Assembly: GCF_022354825.1 (NCBI RefSeq)
Contig: NZ_CP031168.1
Span: forward strand, 807,501-871,500
Origin: Paenibacillus sp. H1-7
Lineage (GTDB): Bacteria; Bacillota; Bacilli; Paenibacillales; NBRC-103111
Direction: 5' to 3'
DNA length: 64,000 nt
Position 1 is the first letter of the stretch; each line of letters opens with the position of its first letter. The position numbers and the translations under genes were made by a program. Under the pieces are notes generated by a model. That model made no database searches. It saw only the letters and a program-made list of their open reading frames with translations, and was not told the origin of the DNA. Below, one piece after another: positions 7,755 to 55,061 of the stretch.

Positions 7755-8738
7755 GTGAATACAAATACAAACGCAGAGCTGCCGCTTAGTCAAGCCTCCG
7801 CCTCCGCCAGGCAGTCCGTTTCCAGGAAAAAGCTATGGTCCGCGATCAAAATACACCGGTTTTACTACTATTTAATCATCCCGGGCATGCTGTATTTCCT
7901 GATTTTCGACTACATTCCGATGTTCGGCGTCATCATCGCTTTTAAAGACATTTCGCCCTTTGAAGGCGTCGAGGCGATTTTGACCGGACAATGGGTCGGG
8001 TTCAAGCATTTTATCCGCTTCTGGAATTCGTATTATTTCTGGAACGTGATGAGAAATACGCTGTTAATCAGCAGCTACAAGCTGTTTTTCGGCTTTCCCG
8101 CCTCCATTATTTTGGCCCTAATGCTCAACGAGCTGAGGCATGCTGTGTTCAAACGAGTCGTTCAGACGATTTCGTATTTGCCGCATTTCATCTCTACGGT
8201 TGTGGCAGCGGGGCTTGTCATGATGATTCTTTCCACCGATAAAGGACTGGTCAACGCGATTGTCGTTGCTTTCGGAGGGGAACCGGTCCATTTTCTCGGA
8301 GATCCCGATTATTTCCGGACGATTCTGGTAGCATCTCATGTATGGCAGACGATCGGTTGGGGGAGCATTTTGTATTTGGCGGCTATGTCCGGGATCGATC
8401 CGGGCTTGTACGAGGCGGCCAGAATGGACGGAGCTAGCCGGTTTCGGCAAATGTGGCATATTACGCTGCCGGGAATTACGCATGTTATCGTGATCATGCT
8501 GATCTTCTCCATCGGCGGTCTGTTGAATGCAGGCTTCGAGAAGGTATTGCTGCTGTATTCTCCGGCCGTGTACGAGGTCGCCGATATTATCGATACGTAC
8601 GTGTACCGGGAAGGGTTAATTTCACTCGATTATTCGTTTGCTACGGCGGTCGGCTTGTTCAAGAACCTATTGGCCATGATTCTCATTCTTGGAGCCAATT
8701 ATATAGCCAAAAAAATGAACCAGACGGGTATCTGGTAA
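7755..8738 (+). CDS. Sugar ABC transporter permease (LplB-type)
   Basis: This 327-aa inner membrane protein starts at GTG 7755 behind AAAGGAGGAAG. It has about six hydrophobic helices. The permease-ATPase coupling (EAA) loop is recognisable at ~215-235 as EAARMDGASRFRQMWHITLP. An N-terminal segment of ~30 residues precedes the first helix. With the next gene it forms the heterodimeric channel for the upstream binding protein. The 165-base spacer before it holds no obvious gene and only weak hairpins. Confidence 0.9.
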   Translation: MNTNTNAELPLSQASASARQSVSRKKLWSAIKIHRFYYYLIIPGMLYFLIFDYIPMFGVIIAFKDISPFEGVEAILTGQWVGFKHFIRFWNSYYFWNVMRNTLLISSYKLFFGFPASIILALMLNELRHAVFKRVVQTISYLPHFISTVVAAGLVMMILSTDKGLVNAIVVAFGGEPVHFLGDPDYFRTILVASHVWQTIGWGSILYLAAMSGIDPGLYEAARMDGASRFRQMWHITLPGITHVIVIMLIFSIGGLLNAGFEKVLLLYSPAVYEVADIIDTYVYREGLISLDYSFATAVGLFKNLLAMILILGANYIAKKMNQTGIW

Positions 8739-8756
8739 TGAAAGGAGGAAGTCTGG

Positions 8757-9641
8757 ATGAGTTCCTTAAAGCCGACGGCAGGCGAGAGGTTGTTTGACGG
8801 TGTTAATATGGCGGTGCTGGTTATGCTGTCACTGATGTTCTTGATTCCGTTCGTAGCGGTACTGTCCACCTCGTTCATCAGTGCGGAGGAGTCGATGCGC
8901 AGAGGGGCGTTCGTCCTCATTCCGGAAAAGCTCGATTTTACCGCCTATGACCTGCTCTTAAATCGTGGACCGCTCATTTTTAATGCGTATAAAGTGACGA
9001 TTTTCAAGGTGGTGGTCGGGACCTTCCTCAATCTGCTGTTTACGGCGACGCTGGCATATGGCTTATCGCGCAAGCAGCTCCCGGGTAGAAACGGGCTGGT
9101 GCTGATCATTTTTCTTACGATGATATTTCATGGCGGGCTGATTCCGACATACATGCTCATCGACAACTTGGGCATTAAGGATACGCTGTGGGCGCTTATT
9201 ATTCCCGGTTTGGTGAGTGCGTGGAATTTGTTCATTTTGCGTAATTTTTTCATGAGCCTGCCGGAGGAGCTGGAGGAGTCGGCCATTATTGACGGGGCGT
9301 CGCCGGCGGTCATTTTGTGGAAAATCGTCATTCCGCTGTCGATGCCAGCCATCGCTACGATCGGGCTGTTCTATGCGGTCCATCATTGGAATGACTGGTT
9401 CGGCGCCTCCATTTACATTAACGAACAGAGCAAGCTTCCGATTCAGGTTGTGATGAGAAATATTTTGTTAAGCGGTGTAACGCAAAACGAGACGCAGCTG
9501 GAGTTCGTTCACGATCCGCCTCCGGCGGCGACACTGAAATCGGCGATCATTATCGTGAGTACGCTTCCGATCTTGTTCGTGTATCCGTTCATTCAAAGAT
9601 ATTTCGTGAAGGGCGTCATGGTCGGCTCGATCAAAGGATGA
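8757..9641 (+). CDS. Sugar ABC transporter permease (LplC/YtcP-type)
   Basis: This 294-aa membrane protein has about six helices. Its EAA loop motif near residues 180-200 (ESAIIDGASPAVILWKIVIP) is the form usual in the second permease of carbohydrate ABC importers. It starts 18 bases after the first permease behind AAAGGAGGAAG and completes the importer. The C-terminal PFIQRYFVKGVMVGSIKG is the standard tail of this family. No nucleotide-binding subunit is encoded nearby. Confidence 0.9.
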   Translation: MSSLKPTAGERLFDGVNMAVLVMLSLMFLIPFVAVLSTSFISAEESMRRGAFVLIPEKLDFTAYDLLLNRGPLIFNAYKVTIFKVVVGTFLNLLFTATLAYGLSRKQLPGRNGLVLIIFLTMIFHGGLIPTYMLIDNLGIKDTLWALIIPGLVSAWNLFILRNFFMSLPEELEESAIIDGASPAVILWKIVIPLSMPAIATIGLFYAVHHWNDWFGASIYINEQSKLPIQVVMRNILLSGVTQNETQLEFVHDPPPAATLKSAIIIVSTLPILFVYPFIQRYFVKGVMVGSIKG

Positions 9642-29518: not shown

Positions 29519-29565
29519 AAAAGTGTAATCGTAACGTGGATTTTTAGCTGAAAATGTCAAATTTT

Positions 29566-29632
29566 CTCGTATAATGTCGGGGATATGGCCCGGAAGTATC
29601 TACCCAAAAACCATAAATTTTTGGACTACGAG
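29566..29632 (+). promoter_or_regulatory. Guanine riboswitch (purine aptamer) of the pur operon
   Basis: The 67-base aptamer has P1 strands CTCGTA/TACGAG, a P2 hairpin TCGGGGATATGGCCCGG, J2/3 GTATCTACC, P3 CCAAAAACCATAAATTTTTGG, and J3/1 ACTACGAG. The C in GGACTACG corresponds to C74, indicating a guanine or hypoxanthine ligand. Downstream, ATACTCGT (29687-29694) is complementary to ACGAGTAT (29628-29635), which includes the P1 3' strand, so it can form an antiterminator competing with P1. A weak terminator (GATAG/CTATC stem then GTTTTGTGTTT, 29701-29755) follows. Ligand should switch purine synthesis off. Confidence 0.95.
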
Positions 29633-29774
29633 TATGCGTGTTCGAAGGTCGGCACACCGGTGCTCGGCCTTAGCTTGCGCTGTGCAATACTCGTCGTCCT
29701 GCCGATAGACCATTACGGTGCCTATCTGCCGGGCGTTTTGTGTTTAATCAGGAAAATAGACGACGGAGGTTATT

Positions 29775-51305: not shown

Positions 51306-51334
51306 TTTACAGAAAGGAGCAACAGGCGTAATAT
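51306..51334 (+). promoter_or_regulatory. Candidate promoter of the c-di-AMP riboswitch operon
   Basis: TTTACA (51306-51311) is separated by 17 bp from TAATAT (51329-51334), about 40 bases before the first riboswitch. It is the best SigA-like match in 51135-51370. That stretch otherwise holds no gene. Confidence 0.5.
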
Positions 51335-51370
51335 ACAATTCATGATTTGTTAATGTAGTTTCGATTCTTG

Positions 51371-51540
51371 ATCGCTCAATTTCCGTAACTGGAAAGCGGG
51401 GGAACCAACGAAGCGGTGCGCGTACGGTGTGAGAGCCGTTCGGGTATTGCTAGGGGTGAATCCCAAGGCATTCGCAGCAATGCTTTGGGTAGGGCGACTC
51501 TCACCGCCCGAATCCGACAGCTAACCTCGTCAGCGTGGAT
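51371..51540 (+). promoter_or_regulatory. c-di-AMP riboswitch (ydaO/yuaA), first copy
   Basis: P1 strands CGCT (51373-51376) and AGCG (51532-51535) enclose the conserved blocks GCGGGGGAACCAA, GGGGTGAATCC, TAGGGCGACTCTCACC, GCCCGAATCCGACAGCTAACC and CTCGT. These match the ydaO consensus almost base for base. c-di-AMP binding is known to switch such genes off by termination. A terminator follows at 51614-51647. Confidence 0.96.
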
Positions 51541-51613
51541 AGACATGGCTTGTTTATAAGCAAAGCGGACATGTCAATGAGAGAGGATGATGAAGCTTGT
51601 GATCGTTTATTAC

Positions 51614-51647
51614 GGCCACAGGGCTTATGCCTCTGTGGTCTTTTTTG
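51614..51647 (+). terminator. Terminator of the first c-di-AMP riboswitch
   Basis: GGCCACAGGGC pairs with GCCTCTGTGGTC (one bulge) around TTAT and is followed by T6. It lies 74 bases after the aptamer. A GACATG/CATGTC stem sits between them and may belong to the expression platform. Confidence 0.9.
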
Positions 51648-51668
51648 CGTTCAAACATAGCAAAATGA

Positions 51669-51822
51669 ATCGCTGAGTCCTTGGGCTATAGGTCTTAAGG
51701 ATCGGGGGAACCGACGAGCCAAATGGCTCATGGGGTGAATCTTGCAGCAGGAGCGGTTAATCCAGGGTGCAAGTAGGGCGACTCTCACGCCCGAATCCGA
51801 CAGCTAACCTCGTAAGCGTATC
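51669..51822 (+). promoter_or_regulatory. c-di-AMP riboswitch (ydaO/yuaA), second copy
   Basis: A second complete aptamer starts at CGCT (51671-51674) and closes with AGCG (51815-51818). Conserved blocks are ATCGGGGGAACCGAC, GGGGTGAATCT, TAGGGCGACTCTCACG, GCCCGAATCCGACAGCTAACC and TCGTAAGCG. Its variable stems differ from the first copy, so it is not a recent duplication. It has its own terminator at 51875-51917. Confidence 0.96.
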
Positions 51823-51874
51823 GGGAGAGGCAACTAATATCGTGTGCAGGCACAGCGGAATGCTGTGCTCTTAA

Positions 51875-51917
51875 AGAAGCCGCGAGAAGAGTTCTCTTCT
51901 CGCAGGCTTCTTTTTTG
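51875..51917 (+). terminator. Terminator of the second c-di-AMP riboswitch
   Basis: GAAGCC-G-CGAGAAGAG pairs with CTCTTCTCG-CA-GGCTTC and is followed by T6. A separate stable hairpin, GCACAGC/GCTGTGC, lies just upstream (51850-51868) and may take part in switching. Confidence 0.92.
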
Positions 51918-52056
51918 CTGCCTCGGAAACGGACGATACTAATTTTCGTTGCCGTCAGGGATGAGGCCAAAATTTGCGGATATAAAAAATGGCAGATTTG
52001 TGCGTCTCCCGGGGATAACGGTTGCCTCCTCAAGGGAGAATAGGAGGAAGAGATCG

Positions 52057-52467
52057 ATGAACGCCACGCAAGAGTACATTCTTGTATCGGCACCAAACAA
52101 AACCGGAGAAAGCTTCATCCGGATGCTCATGTCCAAAGAAATTCCCTTCGCCGTCATAACAAACAGCAAGGGAGAGCAGGGCCGGCTCGCCCGGATTGGC
52201 GTAAAGCATATTATTTTCATTGATACGAACGAATATGAATCATGGGTGTTACCCGAGCTTCCCATCGGCAAAGTATTTTTATTCGAAAGCTCCTTAAATT
52301 TATGCTGCCGGTTTATCCAAATATGCAGAACGTGGACGTCCCAAGATATATGCGTTATCACGCACAATAGCAATCCGAGGCTCGTATATAAAGGCCTTGG
52401 AGCGGATGAAGTGATTCATACGCCGAGCCACGAAGTGTCCTTTTTGGTAGAGGGCAGGGTGCAATAG
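52057..52467 (+). CDS. Small RCK-N/TrkA-N-like protein
   Basis: This 136-aa protein has alternating beta/alpha elements like a Rossmann RCK-N domain of potassium channel regulators: YILVSAPNKTGESFIRML, FAVITNSKGEQ, VFLFES, DICVITHN and a C-terminal GLGADEVIHT, which matches the usual GADEVI ending of the fold. The dinucleotide loop GxGxxG is replaced by APNKTG, so NAD binding is doubtful. ATG 52057 follows TAGGAGGAAG. It is the first gene after the two c-di-AMP riboswitches and 42 bases before the KdpD-like gene, which supports a role in potassium homeostasis. The fold call is from pattern only. Confidence 0.65.
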   Translation: MNATQEYILVSAPNKTGESFIRMLMSKEIPFAVITNSKGEQGRLARIGVKHIIFIDTNEYESWVLPELPIGKVFLFESSLNLCCRFIQICRTWTSQDICVITHNSNPRLVYKGLGADEVIHTPSHEVSFLVEGRVQ

Positions 52468-52509
52468 CTTGCCGGCAGACGGTGTCATTTATCAATCCGG
52501 GAGGATGCC

Positions 52510-54849
52510 ATGGAAACCTTTAGAGGGAAAACGCCGGAGGAAATACTGTTATCCATCTCCAGGCTCCATCGCGGAAGACTGAAGGTGTACATCGGCGCTG
52601 TCAGCGGCTCCGGCAAAACCTACCACATGCTCCGTGAAGGGCAGGCGCTCAAGCAGCAGGGGATCGATGTGGTTATCTGCGCGGTCTCGACGATGCAACG
52701 GCCGGAGACGGTAGAGCAAATAGGCGACCTGGAGCGGGTGCCGAGCATCCATTGGCACGGCAAGGAAGGTACGGAGAAGAAGGATTTGAATCTGGAAGCG
52801 CTGCTTAAGCGTAATCCCGAGGTTGTTCTGGTTGACGGATTGGCCCACCGGAACCGCAAGGATGCCCGTTACCCTACCCGTCTGGATGACATCAAGCAGC
52901 TGCTCAGCCATGGCATAAGCGTTATTACGACGATCAACGTGTATGAGCTGGAAGGAGCGACGGAGCTGGCCAAACGGTGGACCGGTATCGAAGTGCGCGA
53001 AACCGTACCAGCCGACACGCTGGAGCTGGCGGATGAGGTCGTGCTCATCGACGTGACGCCGGAAACGCTGCTGACCCGTGCGGCTGAAGGGCAAATGCGG
53101 CTCAGCTGCGAAGCGGATATTTACAAGCGGGGGAACCTGGCCGTGCTGCGGGAGCTGGCGCTTCGTCTCGTTGCCGAAGGCGTGAACGACACGCTGGAGA
53201 AGCACCGCGAGGAAATGGGGCTCCTGGGGCCCTCAGGCGCCGCAGAGCGCATTCTCGTGTCCGCGCAATACCATTGGAACGGATCGATCCACGTGCGCCG
53301 CGGACAGCAGATCGCCAAGCGGCTGAACGGCGAGCTGGTCGTCGTAACCTTCAAGGGGAAGCGGGAGATGACCAAGGAGGAGGCCGCCTTCAAACGGTCG
53401 ATCGTGAAGCTGACCGAGAAGGTAGGCGGAAGCTTCGAGGAGCTTCCTTTGGGCTCGCGCCGGGCACTCCCGAAGCGGCTGGTAGATTATGCGATCGAGC
53501 ACAATGTAACGAGAATCGTCATGGGCCATTCCAAGCAAACGCGATGGCAGGAGCTGTGGCAAGGCTCGATCGTTCACGACATGCTGAAGCGGACGAAGAA
53601 TATCGACATCTTCATCGTTGCGGACCGGGCGGAGCACGAGGGAGAACGGATTCTTCCGGCCCGGATGACAAGGCAGGCGGACGACCCTTACCGCCGGCTC
53701 AGCATGAAGGAAGTGGAGAAGCGGATCCAGCAGATCAAACGGGGACGGCTTAAGGTATATATCGGTGCCGCGCCCGGAGTAGGCAAAACCTATACGATGC
53801 TGCGAGAGGGCAACGATCTGCTACGCAAAGGCGTATCGGTAAAGATCGGCTTGCTGGAAACCCACGGCCGTAAGGAGACCAAAGATCAGATCGGCGCACT
53901 GGACACGATTCCCCGCAAGGTCATTGATTACCGGGGAACCCGCCTCGAAGAAATGGATACGGACGAGATTATCCGTCTCGCTCCGGAAATTGTTCTCGTA
54001 GATGAGCTGGCGCATACGAATGTGCCGGGCAGCAAATACAAGAAGCGCTATGAGGACGTATTGGAAATATTGGATGCCGGCATTTCCGTCATTTCCACGG
54101 TCAACGTGCAGCATCTCGAAAGCTTGAACGATGCGGTGGAACAAATGACCGGTGTCCGTGTCCGGGAAACCGTACCGGACCGTATATTGCGGCTTGCGGA
54201 TGAAGTACAGCTGATCGATGTCGCTCCAGCGTCGTTGCAGCAGCGGATGAAGGAAGGCAAAATCTACGCGATGGACAAAGTGAACCAGGCGCTGGGCAAC
54301 TTCTTCAAGACGGGCAATCTTATCGCCCTCAGGGAGCTGGCGCTTCGGGAAATCGCCGATGATGTAGACGAACGCCTGGAATCGCTGGAGCGCAAAGGCT
54401 CTCTACGGGGTCCGTGGCGTCGCCGTGAGGTCATCTACGTCGGTGTCAGCAGCACGCCTAAGGCGGAGCGGCTCGTAAGAAGAGGCTTCCGGATCGCGCA
54501 TCGGCTAAAGGCGGCTTGGTATGTCACTTATGTGCAGACCAAGCATAGGAAGCAGCCGGATGATCTGGAAGAGAGACTGGAGCAAATCCGAAAGCTGACC
54601 GAGCGTCTCGGGGGAACGTTCGAGATGCAGGCCGCGGATCACCGCAGCCAAATTGCCGACGTGCTCGTAGCCAAAGCCAAGGAGTACAAGGCTACGCAAT
54701 TAATCATCGGCCAATCGGGGCAGACCGTGTGGCAGGAGTGGTGGCACGGCTCGCTGGTCAAAAAGCTGCTGCGCTTGTCACGGCATGCCGATGTGCTGGT
54801 CGTTGCCGATTATGACCCGAATCTTCAGCTTCAGCCAGGCCAAGAGTAA
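52510..54849 (+). CDS. Tandem KdpD-sensor/USP fusion without kinase domain
   Basis: This 779-aa protein consists of two KdpD N-terminal units in a row. Unit 1 (~12-390) has Walker A at 29-37 (GAVSGSGKT) but VLVDGLAH at 106-113, with Gly110 in place of the Walker B Glu. A divergent USP domain follows (~246-380). Unit 2 (~402-775) has canonical GAAPGVGKT (419-427), VLVDELAH with Glu499, and a well-formed USP ending GQSGQTVWQEWWHGS. There are no transmembrane helices and no HisKA or HATPase domain. KdpD sensors govern potassium uptake, and the USP of Staphylococcus aureus KdpD binds c-di-AMP. Solo KdpD N-terminal proteins are known, but a double unit is unusual. GGGAGGATG precedes ATG 52510. Confidence 0.88.
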   Translation: METFRGKTPEEILLSISRLHRGRLKVYIGAVSGSGKTYHMLREGQALKQQGIDVVICAVSTMQRPETVEQIGDLERVPSIHWHGKEGTEKKDLNLEALLKRNPEVVLVDGLAHRNRKDARYPTRLDDIKQLLSHGISVITTINVYELEGATELAKRWTGIEVRETVPADTLELADEVVLIDVTPETLLTRAAEGQMRLSCEADIYKRGNLAVLRELALRLVAEGVNDTLEKHREEMGLLGPSGAAERILVSAQYHWNGSIHVRRGQQIAKRLNGELVVVTFKGKREMTKEEAAFKRSIVKLTEKVGGSFEELPLGSRRALPKRLVDYAIEHNVTRIVMGHSKQTRWQELWQGSIVHDMLKRTKNIDIFIVADRAEHEGERILPARMTRQADDPYRRLSMKEVEKRIQQIKRGRLKVYIGAAPGVGKTYTMLREGNDLLRKGVSVKIGLLETHGRKETKDQIGALDTIPRKVIDYRGTRLEEMDTDEIIRLAPEIVLVDELAHTNVPGSKYKKRYEDVLEILDAGISVISTVNVQHLESLNDAVEQMTGVRVRETVPDRILRLADEVQLIDVAPASLQQRMKEGKIYAMDKVNQALGNFFKTGNLIALRELALREIADDVDERLESLERKGSLRGPWRRREVIYVGVSSTPKAERLVRRGFRIAHRLKAAWYVTYVQTKHRKQPDDLEERLEQIRKLTERLGGTFEMQAADHRSQIADVLVAKAKEYKATQLIIGQSGQTVWQEWWHGSLVKKLLRLSRHADVLVVADYDPNLQLQPGQE

Positions 54850-54887
54850 CAAAGAAACGAATCAACTTAGGGAGAGATGTACTTACA

Positions 54888-55061
54888 ATGGGGATATTTG
54901 TGTTTGTGTTCGTCTGTCTGTTTGCAGCAGGATACTTAATCATTAACATGTTCGACAACCGGCGCACATCGAACAAGGAGGGTGTCCGCAAACGGATTAT
55001 CATTTCGATTAGTCAGGCGGCCATCATCTCCAGCATCATTCAGCTGATTATACATGAATAG
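54888..55061 (+). CDS. Small two-helix membrane protein, 57 aa
   Basis: This 57-aa frame begins MGIFVFVFVCLFAAG. A first hydrophobic helix (~3-20) is followed by a charged loop (FDNRRTSNKEGVRKR) and a second helix (~37-55) ending IHE. AGGGAGAGATG precedes ATG 54888. It lies 38 bases after the KdpD fusion and before the operon terminator, so it should be under the same riboswitches. It may anchor the KdpD-like protein to the membrane or be a KdpF-like peptide. Both ideas are inference and I do not recognise a family. Confidence 0.7.
   Translation: MGIFVFVFVCLFAAGYLIINMFDNRRTSNKEGVRKRIIISISQAAIISSIIQLIIHE

Follow-up and report, generated by a model that had tools for sequence, protein, structure and literature searches.

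Within a 64,000-nucleotide stretch of the Paenibacillus sp. H1-7 genome (contig NZ_CP031168.1, positions 807,501 to 871,500; hereafter the window) lies an operon, at 51306-55061, in which two riboswitches for cyclic di-adenosine monophosphate (c-di-AMP) precede the genes for a small protein that we call P1, a double KdpD/USP protein (KdpDD) and a 57-amino-acid (aa) protein. This operon is what remains, on the regulatory side, of a kdp operon of the Paenibacillus type whose pump genes, kdpABC, were lost in place. The genome's only Kdp pump is encoded 0.6 Mb away and belongs to another lineage; like the anatomy, synteny and residue conservation reported below, the loss and the separate pump lineage were computed directly. 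We consider it likely that remainder and pump now work together, jointly run by the riboswitches and by KdpDD phosphorylating the pump subunit KdpB.

Pump genes lost from the window operon

Thirteen genomes of the genus, this one included, were searched for P1, KdpD, the riboswitches and KdpA. P1 was found in 12 of them, and the remaining genome (G012, 4.4 Mb) is also without KdpD and KdpA. In every one of the 11 other genomes with KdpD, the gene order is P1-kdpA-kdpB-kdpC-KdpDD on one strand (KdpB of G009 and KdpDD of G011 are each split into two frames as sequenced), and aptamers over the gathering score stand before P1, two in eight genomes and one in three (G004, G005 and G010). Four loci, those of three relatives and of the genome's own pump module described below, also hold an open reading frame (ORF) of ~36 aa and a 25-aa KdpF-like ORF between P1 and kdpA. 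The original prediction had correctly noted that no transporter gene adjoins the operon in this genome, and had read it as a stand-alone sensing module; kdpABC between P1 and KdpDD throughout the 11 relatives does not support a stand-alone nature.

The surroundings of the operon tell where the pump genes were lost. Its left flank encodes an ABC transporter, a permease, a histidine kinase and a response regulator, and its right flank a 95-aa protein, an Rrf2 protein, a 139-aa protein and a thioredoxin-like protein. The same flanks, in the same order, enclose a complete kdp operon in Paenibacillus sp. UNC451MF, Paenibacillus sp. RC67 and P. doosanensis; with Paenibacillus sp. 32352, the fourth of the closest named loci, only the right flank is in common. 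Because all 11 relatives keep kdpABC in the operon and the flanks are syntenic with those of three genomes, the loss occurred in place. A hidden full-length KdpD was considered and rejected: PF13493, the DUF4118 sensor of the KdpDE histidine kinase, has no match in any of the 13 genus genomes (3 of 14 control genomes matched; KdpE was not searched for), and both PF02702 matches in the genome lie inside the window. In Paenibacillus filicis, one locus (L096 8869-13067) consists of tandem aptamers, P1, a KdpC fragment and KdpDD, with a complete kdp locus elsewhere (L055).

A pump of another lineage at a second site

The genome, a single contig of 8.38 Mb, has one KdpA match over cut-off; it lies outside the window, at 248087-249733, and is followed by kdpB and kdpC (TIGR00680, TIGR01497 and TIGR00681, all over cut-off). 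Two aptamers and a P1 paralogue, 62% identical to the window P1, precede this kdpA, while a third aptamer and a ~150-aa gene, P2, point away from the module. KdpD matches are found in the window only. The TGES motif is present in 63/63 KdpB sequences, this genome's included (S157).

The pump module was most likely inserted at this 250-kb site, because matches to kdp genes, P1 or P2 are absent there from all five relatives compared (0/5) and two of them have the flanking genes nearly abutting: DUF72 and HtpX-like genes are ~25 bp apart in G009 and G007, and 7.5 kb lie between them here. In a KdpA+B+C tree of this genome and 25 loci hand-picked from the 80 of the P1 survey below, this pump grouped with those of P. 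hemerocallicola, P. solanacearum, P. koleovorans and P. ginsengarvi (96/97). The approximately unbiased (AU) test rejected a grouping with the pumps of three among the closest relatives of the window operon at p 0.0018, a value that is somewhat flattering because a quick KdpB tree had already been inspected when the test group was chosen; a plain relocation of the resident pump to the 250-kb site falls with the same result. Locus L052, whose KdpB matches are split between two frames, was left out of this tree. KdpDD, by comparison, groups with L051, L052 and L054 (Shimodaira-Hasegawa-like approximate likelihood ratio 100, in a quick tree). With KdpDD placed among close relatives and the pump apart from them, the regulator is therefore native and the pump that of another lineage. 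For the P1 encoded in the pump module, no single clade stands out clearly as nearest (best 65%), so its kinship was not used as evidence.

Among 99 sampled genomes of the family, kdpA is missing within 12 kb of four KdpD loci: the one in this genome, a second copy in G095, and two from assemblies of >400 contigs. KdpD is missing within the same distance of five kdpA loci, including this genome's and two that are second kdpA copies (G040 and G060).

P2 (L042 11241-11699, or G000:C1 ~251740-252198) belongs to a ~150-aa family with no Pfam match over cut-off and no NCBIfam match; it lies divergent from P1 and kdp, here behind its own c-di-AMP aptamer, and has matches in many of the 80 loci. Two further loci (L078 2029-7585 and L129 3509-8599) run from a c-di-AMP aptamer through P2 and a KdpB-like ATPase to a ~757-aa protein, with no KdpA match adjoining. 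Their ATPases are 62-63% identical to KdpB, that of L129 is without TGES, and both stand outside the 63 sequences counted above. Near-alike kdp loci in Paenibacillus sp. 32O-W, Siminovitchia terrae and a Brevibacillus metagenome-assembled genome (L064, L073 and L079) point to recent transfer or contamination.

The retained leader, KdpDD and P1

All features of the window operon lie on the forward strand. Its leader opens with a sigma-A-like promoter, TTTACA-17-TAATAT (51306-51334), whose TTTACA is unchanged in 9/9 aligned sequences, the window counted in; the consensus scan by itself performs at chance level (3 found, 2.8 expected). Searches with cmscan placed a distal c-di-AMP riboswitch aptamer (RF00379) at 51363-51551 (87.1 bits, E 5.9e-19) and a proximal one at 51661-51834 (87.2 bits, E 5.5e-19), both spanning the full length of the model and far over its Rfam gathering score of 38 bits. 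Behind the distal aptamer lies an intrinsic terminator at 51614-51645 (hairpin 51614-51640 and T run; folding energy of 51600-51646, -19.9 kcal/mol), and behind the proximal one another at 51873-51916 (hairpin 51882-51903 and T run; 51868-51916, -27.6 kcal/mol). A terminator scan alone was not over chance (5 found, 4.0 expected), and the two are credited because each sits behind an aptamer and not because of scan statistics. The original prediction of two complete aptamers, each with its own terminator, is thus borne out. Free minimum-free-energy folding of the leaders formed the terminators and did not reproduce the aptamer fold; we therefore go no further than duplexes of -13.1 and -12.1 kcal/mol where an antiterminator is concerned. 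With a terminator 3' of each aptamer, both riboswitches are presumably OFF switches, a direction taken from published relatives.

The whole genome holds 14 c-di-AMP aptamers and two matches to diadenylate cyclase domains. Other aptamers precede a permease that looks KimA-like by eye (L045 3357-5527), a TrkH/KtrB and KtrA-like pair (L047 4258-6500) and, at L044 and L050, proteins that by eye are of a secreted cell-wall type.

KdpDD (52510-54849, 779 aa) starts 42 bp after the P1 stop. It has two stretches each of PF02702 (E 1.3e-161) and USP, in agreement with the predicted double KdpD/USP architecture. It also matches NCBIfam NF038185, "KdpD-like non-kinase potassium sensor," twice (780.5 bits, cut-off 550); that model describes a single unit of 373 positions, whereas KdpDD has two units and both halves match. 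We aligned the window KdpDD with the proteins of the 60 loci, out of 80, that have an ORF >700 aa (n=61). The halves are 39% identical to each other, and the second is nearer the single-unit KdpDs of D. radiodurans and Picosynechococcus (43-45%, against 34% for the first). Residues 411-624 match the solved KdpD N-domain 2r8r (E 5.1e-67).

Conservation sets the two KdpD domains apart. Walker A GKT is present in both halves in 61/61 proteins, as is a Tyr at the position of the adenine-pair aromatic (W39 of E. coli KdpD), which is also Tyr in D. radiodurans. Arg190 and Arg579, invariant in 57 rows, are putative equivalents of R190 of E. coli KdpD. In KdpD domain 2 (53743-54369) the Walker B pair Asp498-Glu499 is likewise complete in 61/61, and in domain 1 (52576-53181) Asp109 is invariant (61/61) and residue 110 is Gly in 55, Ser in 3, and Asn, Arg and Glu in one each. 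The N-terminal half is not classed as a kinase because the Walker B Glu is absent in 60/61. For the KdpD domain itself, an atypical serine kinase activity with KdpB as substrate is reported, and in E. coli KdpD both the Asp and the Glu of Walker B are reportedly required for KdpB phosphorylation (PMC11018627). We therefore predict that the second half of KdpDD is a live atypical serine kinase and that the first, with Walker A intact and the catalytic Glu replaced, is a sensing pseudo-kinase fused to it. The original prediction called the protein kinase-less, which holds for a histidine kinase and is probably wrong for the second half, where Walker A and Asp-Glu are kept.

Conservation of the USP domains runs opposite to that of the kinase residues. 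The loop SAQYHWNGS of USP domain 1 (53245-53634) is near-invariant, with Q253, N257 and S259 each kept in 61/61, and the loop of USP domain 2 (54427-54819) is variable; mean column identity is 0.787 for KdpD1, 0.760 for USP1, 0.856 for KdpD2 and 0.616 for USP2, the lowest of the four. The N-terminal USP is thus the candidate ligand site. KdpDD may bind c-di-AMP. In a Foldseek search, its structural model matched the c-di-AMP-bound USP structure 7ji4 (E 1.3e-6, TM score 0.84 over the target; the aligned half is unspecified).

P1 (52057-52467, 136 aa) starts at an ATG behind a ribosome-binding-like site, downstream of the beginning of the mechanically called ORF. It has the Rossmann-type KTN (RCK_N) fold, as in KtrA, so the RCK-N-like protein of the original prediction is upheld by structure and not by sequence. 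The nucleotide-binding loop GxGxxG is found in 0/81 P1 sequences, and P1 was therefore not classed as a classical KTN member; compared with KtrA and TrkA, it also has no room for RCK_C. Neither the window P1 nor the pump-module P1 has a Pfam or NCBIfam match. P1 as a Pfam-recognisable TrkA_N protein was accordingly rejected (against the genome's KtrA-like protein, hhalign gave a probability of only 2%, E 0.024), and P1 as a DNA-binding regulator was ruled out by the KTN fold. A third, divergent P1 copy (43%) lies behind a single c-di-AMP aptamer (L043 10839-11520, or G000:C1 ~4875339-4876020), downstream of genes that by eye resemble ectoine biosynthesis and ectoine uptake genes; it has two Pfam matches only, both under cut-off.

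P1 was surveyed with a P1 alignment, via two short peptide patterns, over the genome collection, giving 80 loci among 92 encoding stretches. P1 precedes kdpA in 62/80 loci and a KdpC fragment with KdpDD in one (L096); no kdp gene follows it within the stretch covered in 17/80, where some stretches end soon past P1 (L060 and L089). With a covariance model built from the genus aptamers, at least one aptamer match was found <=1.1 kb upstream of P1 in 77/80 loci (two cut by a contig end; the match of L127 weak, at 27 bits), and two aptamers stand ahead of P1 in 44/63 kdp loci. Among the 99 family genomes, P1 matched in 68/80 with kdpA over cut-off and in 1/19 without it (Fisher p 6e-11, uncorrected for relatedness and inflated by linkage). 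The lone P1-bearing genome of the second group, G058, has a KdpA match below cut-off. P1 lies beside kdpA at 65/82 kdpA loci. At L103, L108 and L112 (~8100-8900, minus strand), single USP-domain proteins akin to the USPs of KdpDD lie divergent from a solitary P1, and a P2 match adjoins those of L103 and L112.

The 57-aa protein (54888-55061) has two hydrophobic stretches by eye and no Pfam or NCBIfam match over cut-off. Its gene is present in 4/80 named loci, all of them closest relatives, and P1 with KdpDD is widespread; the gene trio of the original prediction is narrow in its distribution. For P1, KdpDD and both KdpDD halves, the ratio of nonsynonymous to synonymous substitution (dN/dS) against three relatives is ~0.04-0.10 where computable, with dS at or near saturation. 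Elsewhere in the window, a purine riboswitch (RF00167, 81.4 bits) lies at 29547-29648 and the end of an rRNA operon, with 23S and 5S, at 1-2151.

Proposed control of the pump, alternatives and precedents

Taken together with the published relatives, the retained parts suggest how two separated loci could serve one pump. At low K+ and low c-di-AMP, both riboswitch pairs would be read through, and the pump, the P1 proteins and KdpDD would be made together. As c-di-AMP rises, the riboswitches would terminate transcripts at both loci, and at high c-di-AMP the KdpDD already made would phosphorylate the TGES serine of KdpB (S157) and halt the pump, here in trans. The C-terminal half would act as the live kinase, and the N-terminal pseudo-kinase half, with its kept USP loop, probably as the sensor. 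Phosphorylation of KdpB is proposed by analogy with published short KdpDs; the division of labour and the action in trans are suggested by conservation. In B. thuringiensis, deleting the truncated kdpD is reported to leave kdp transcription alike (PMC6488665), which fits a post-translational role for KdpD. The potassium and c-di-AMP context that the original prediction had assigned to the operon is supported.

Several observations weigh against this scheme. The KdpB of this genome is both unlinked and foreign to KdpDD, which would have to reach it in trans; a clean split of pump and regulator was found in one genome only among the 99; and P1 has no part in the scheme as drawn. The insertion is less clear in G005, where DUF72 is absent and a cls-like gene abuts HtpX, and in G003 and G008, where ~2.9 kb of other DNA lies between the cls-like and HtpX-like genes. 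The KdpDD model has a predicted TM score of 0.43 and is unreliable in its interdomain part, and was therefore not used for domain arrangement. Finally, the c-di-AMP motif reported for the S. aureus KdpD USP, (A/G/C)xSxSx2N(Y/F) (PMC8214093), occurs in neither USP of any KdpDD (0/61). This motif may not be decisive, because the short KdpD of D. radiodurans likewise lacks it and its D. geothermalis relative reportedly responds to c-di-AMP at 1 mM (PMC11018627); of these two proteins, the sequence compared was that of D. radiodurans.

An operon with no transporter adjoining could instead sense K+ and c-di-AMP for something other than Kdp, such as Ktr or a broader osmotic response, as the aptamer ahead of the TrkH/KtrB and KtrA-like pair, one of the 14 in the genome, and the 17/80 loci where P1 has no kdp genes in its stretch would allow. 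We judge this very unlikely, given that P1 is nearly limited to genomes with kdpA (68/80 against 1/19), that the genus relatives retain kdpABC in the same operon, and that KdpB is what the KdpD serine kinase reportedly phosphorylates (PMC11018627). Still less probable is that the operon is a functionless, decaying relic of the lost kdp locus. The pump genes are indeed gone from it and P. filicis has a comparable locus of P1, KdpC fragment and KdpDD beside a complete one, but both ORFs are intact and under the low dN/dS given above (dS at or near saturation), the kinase residues survive, as do the two aptamers and the promoter element, and the operon holds the only KdpD matches of the genome.

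Compatible with joint control of the distant pump, and bearing on the protein that this control leaves aside, is the idea that KdpA is to P1 what KtrB is to KtrA, with P1 docking on it as a KTN regulatory subunit in the manner of an RCK-like gate. We regard it as a tentative and rather doubtful proposal: GxGxxG is missing from all 81 P1 sequences, which are too short for an RCK_C domain; P1 copies occur away from kdpA, and one here stayed with KdpDD after the pump was lost; 12 of the 80 kdpA-bearing family genomes have no P1 match; and a common fold does not show function. Unlikely too, as a whole, is a Kdp control unit of the Paenibacillaceae in which the pseudo-kinase half activates the live half and P1 gates KdpA, and which here outlived its own pump and now governs one of another lineage in trans.

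Riboswitch-controlled kdpFABC, serine-kinase control of KdpB by short KdpDs and tandem c-di-AMP riboswitches are already in print. In B. thuringiensis BMB171, c-di-AMP is reported to promote termination before kdpFABC, no kdpE was found, and 12 species were counted that combine a c-di-AMP riboswitch with a KdpD, truncated in every case (PMC6488665). The present operon resembles that one in its c-di-AMP aptamer in the kdp leader and its KdpD without histidine kinase, and differs, as far as the published description goes, in its double 779-aa KdpD (a single 365-aa protein there), its two aptamers and its lack of kdpFABC; the kdp genes named in that account are kdpF, A, B, C and kdpD, with no P1-like gene among them. 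The short KdpD/Usp protein of D. geothermalis is reported to phosphorylate E. coli KdpB under stimulation by c-di-AMP, and some Bacillota to place the entire Kdp system under c-di-AMP (PMC11018627). KdpDD shares with it the KdpD and Usp domains, the lack of a histidine kinase and, in its C-terminal half, Walker A and Asp-Glu, and departs from it in having two units per chain, the first without the catalytic Glu in 60/61. The leader is of the same kind as the 77 doublets described for tandem c-di-AMP riboswitches (PMC9481103), with two successive aptamers and a terminator between them. In the open-licence literature, searched by title and abstract, nothing was found on a double KdpD, a P1 family in kdp operons or a pump swap; the hits included work on Mycoplasma bovis and on TrkA of Streptococcus mitis. 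As far as these searches go, new elements here are the double KdpD with its predicted division of labour, the KTN-fold P1 in kdp operons, and a pump replaced while its putative brake was retained.

With a predicted pseudo-kinase and a predicted live copy in one chain, KdpDD would be a natural separation-of-function protein for learning how c-di-AMP activates KdpD. P1 raises the question of whether a P-type ATPase complex can bear a KTN regulator of the kind that Ktr and Trk have. The split genome itself would be a natural experiment on whether a retained brake works on a pump of another lineage.

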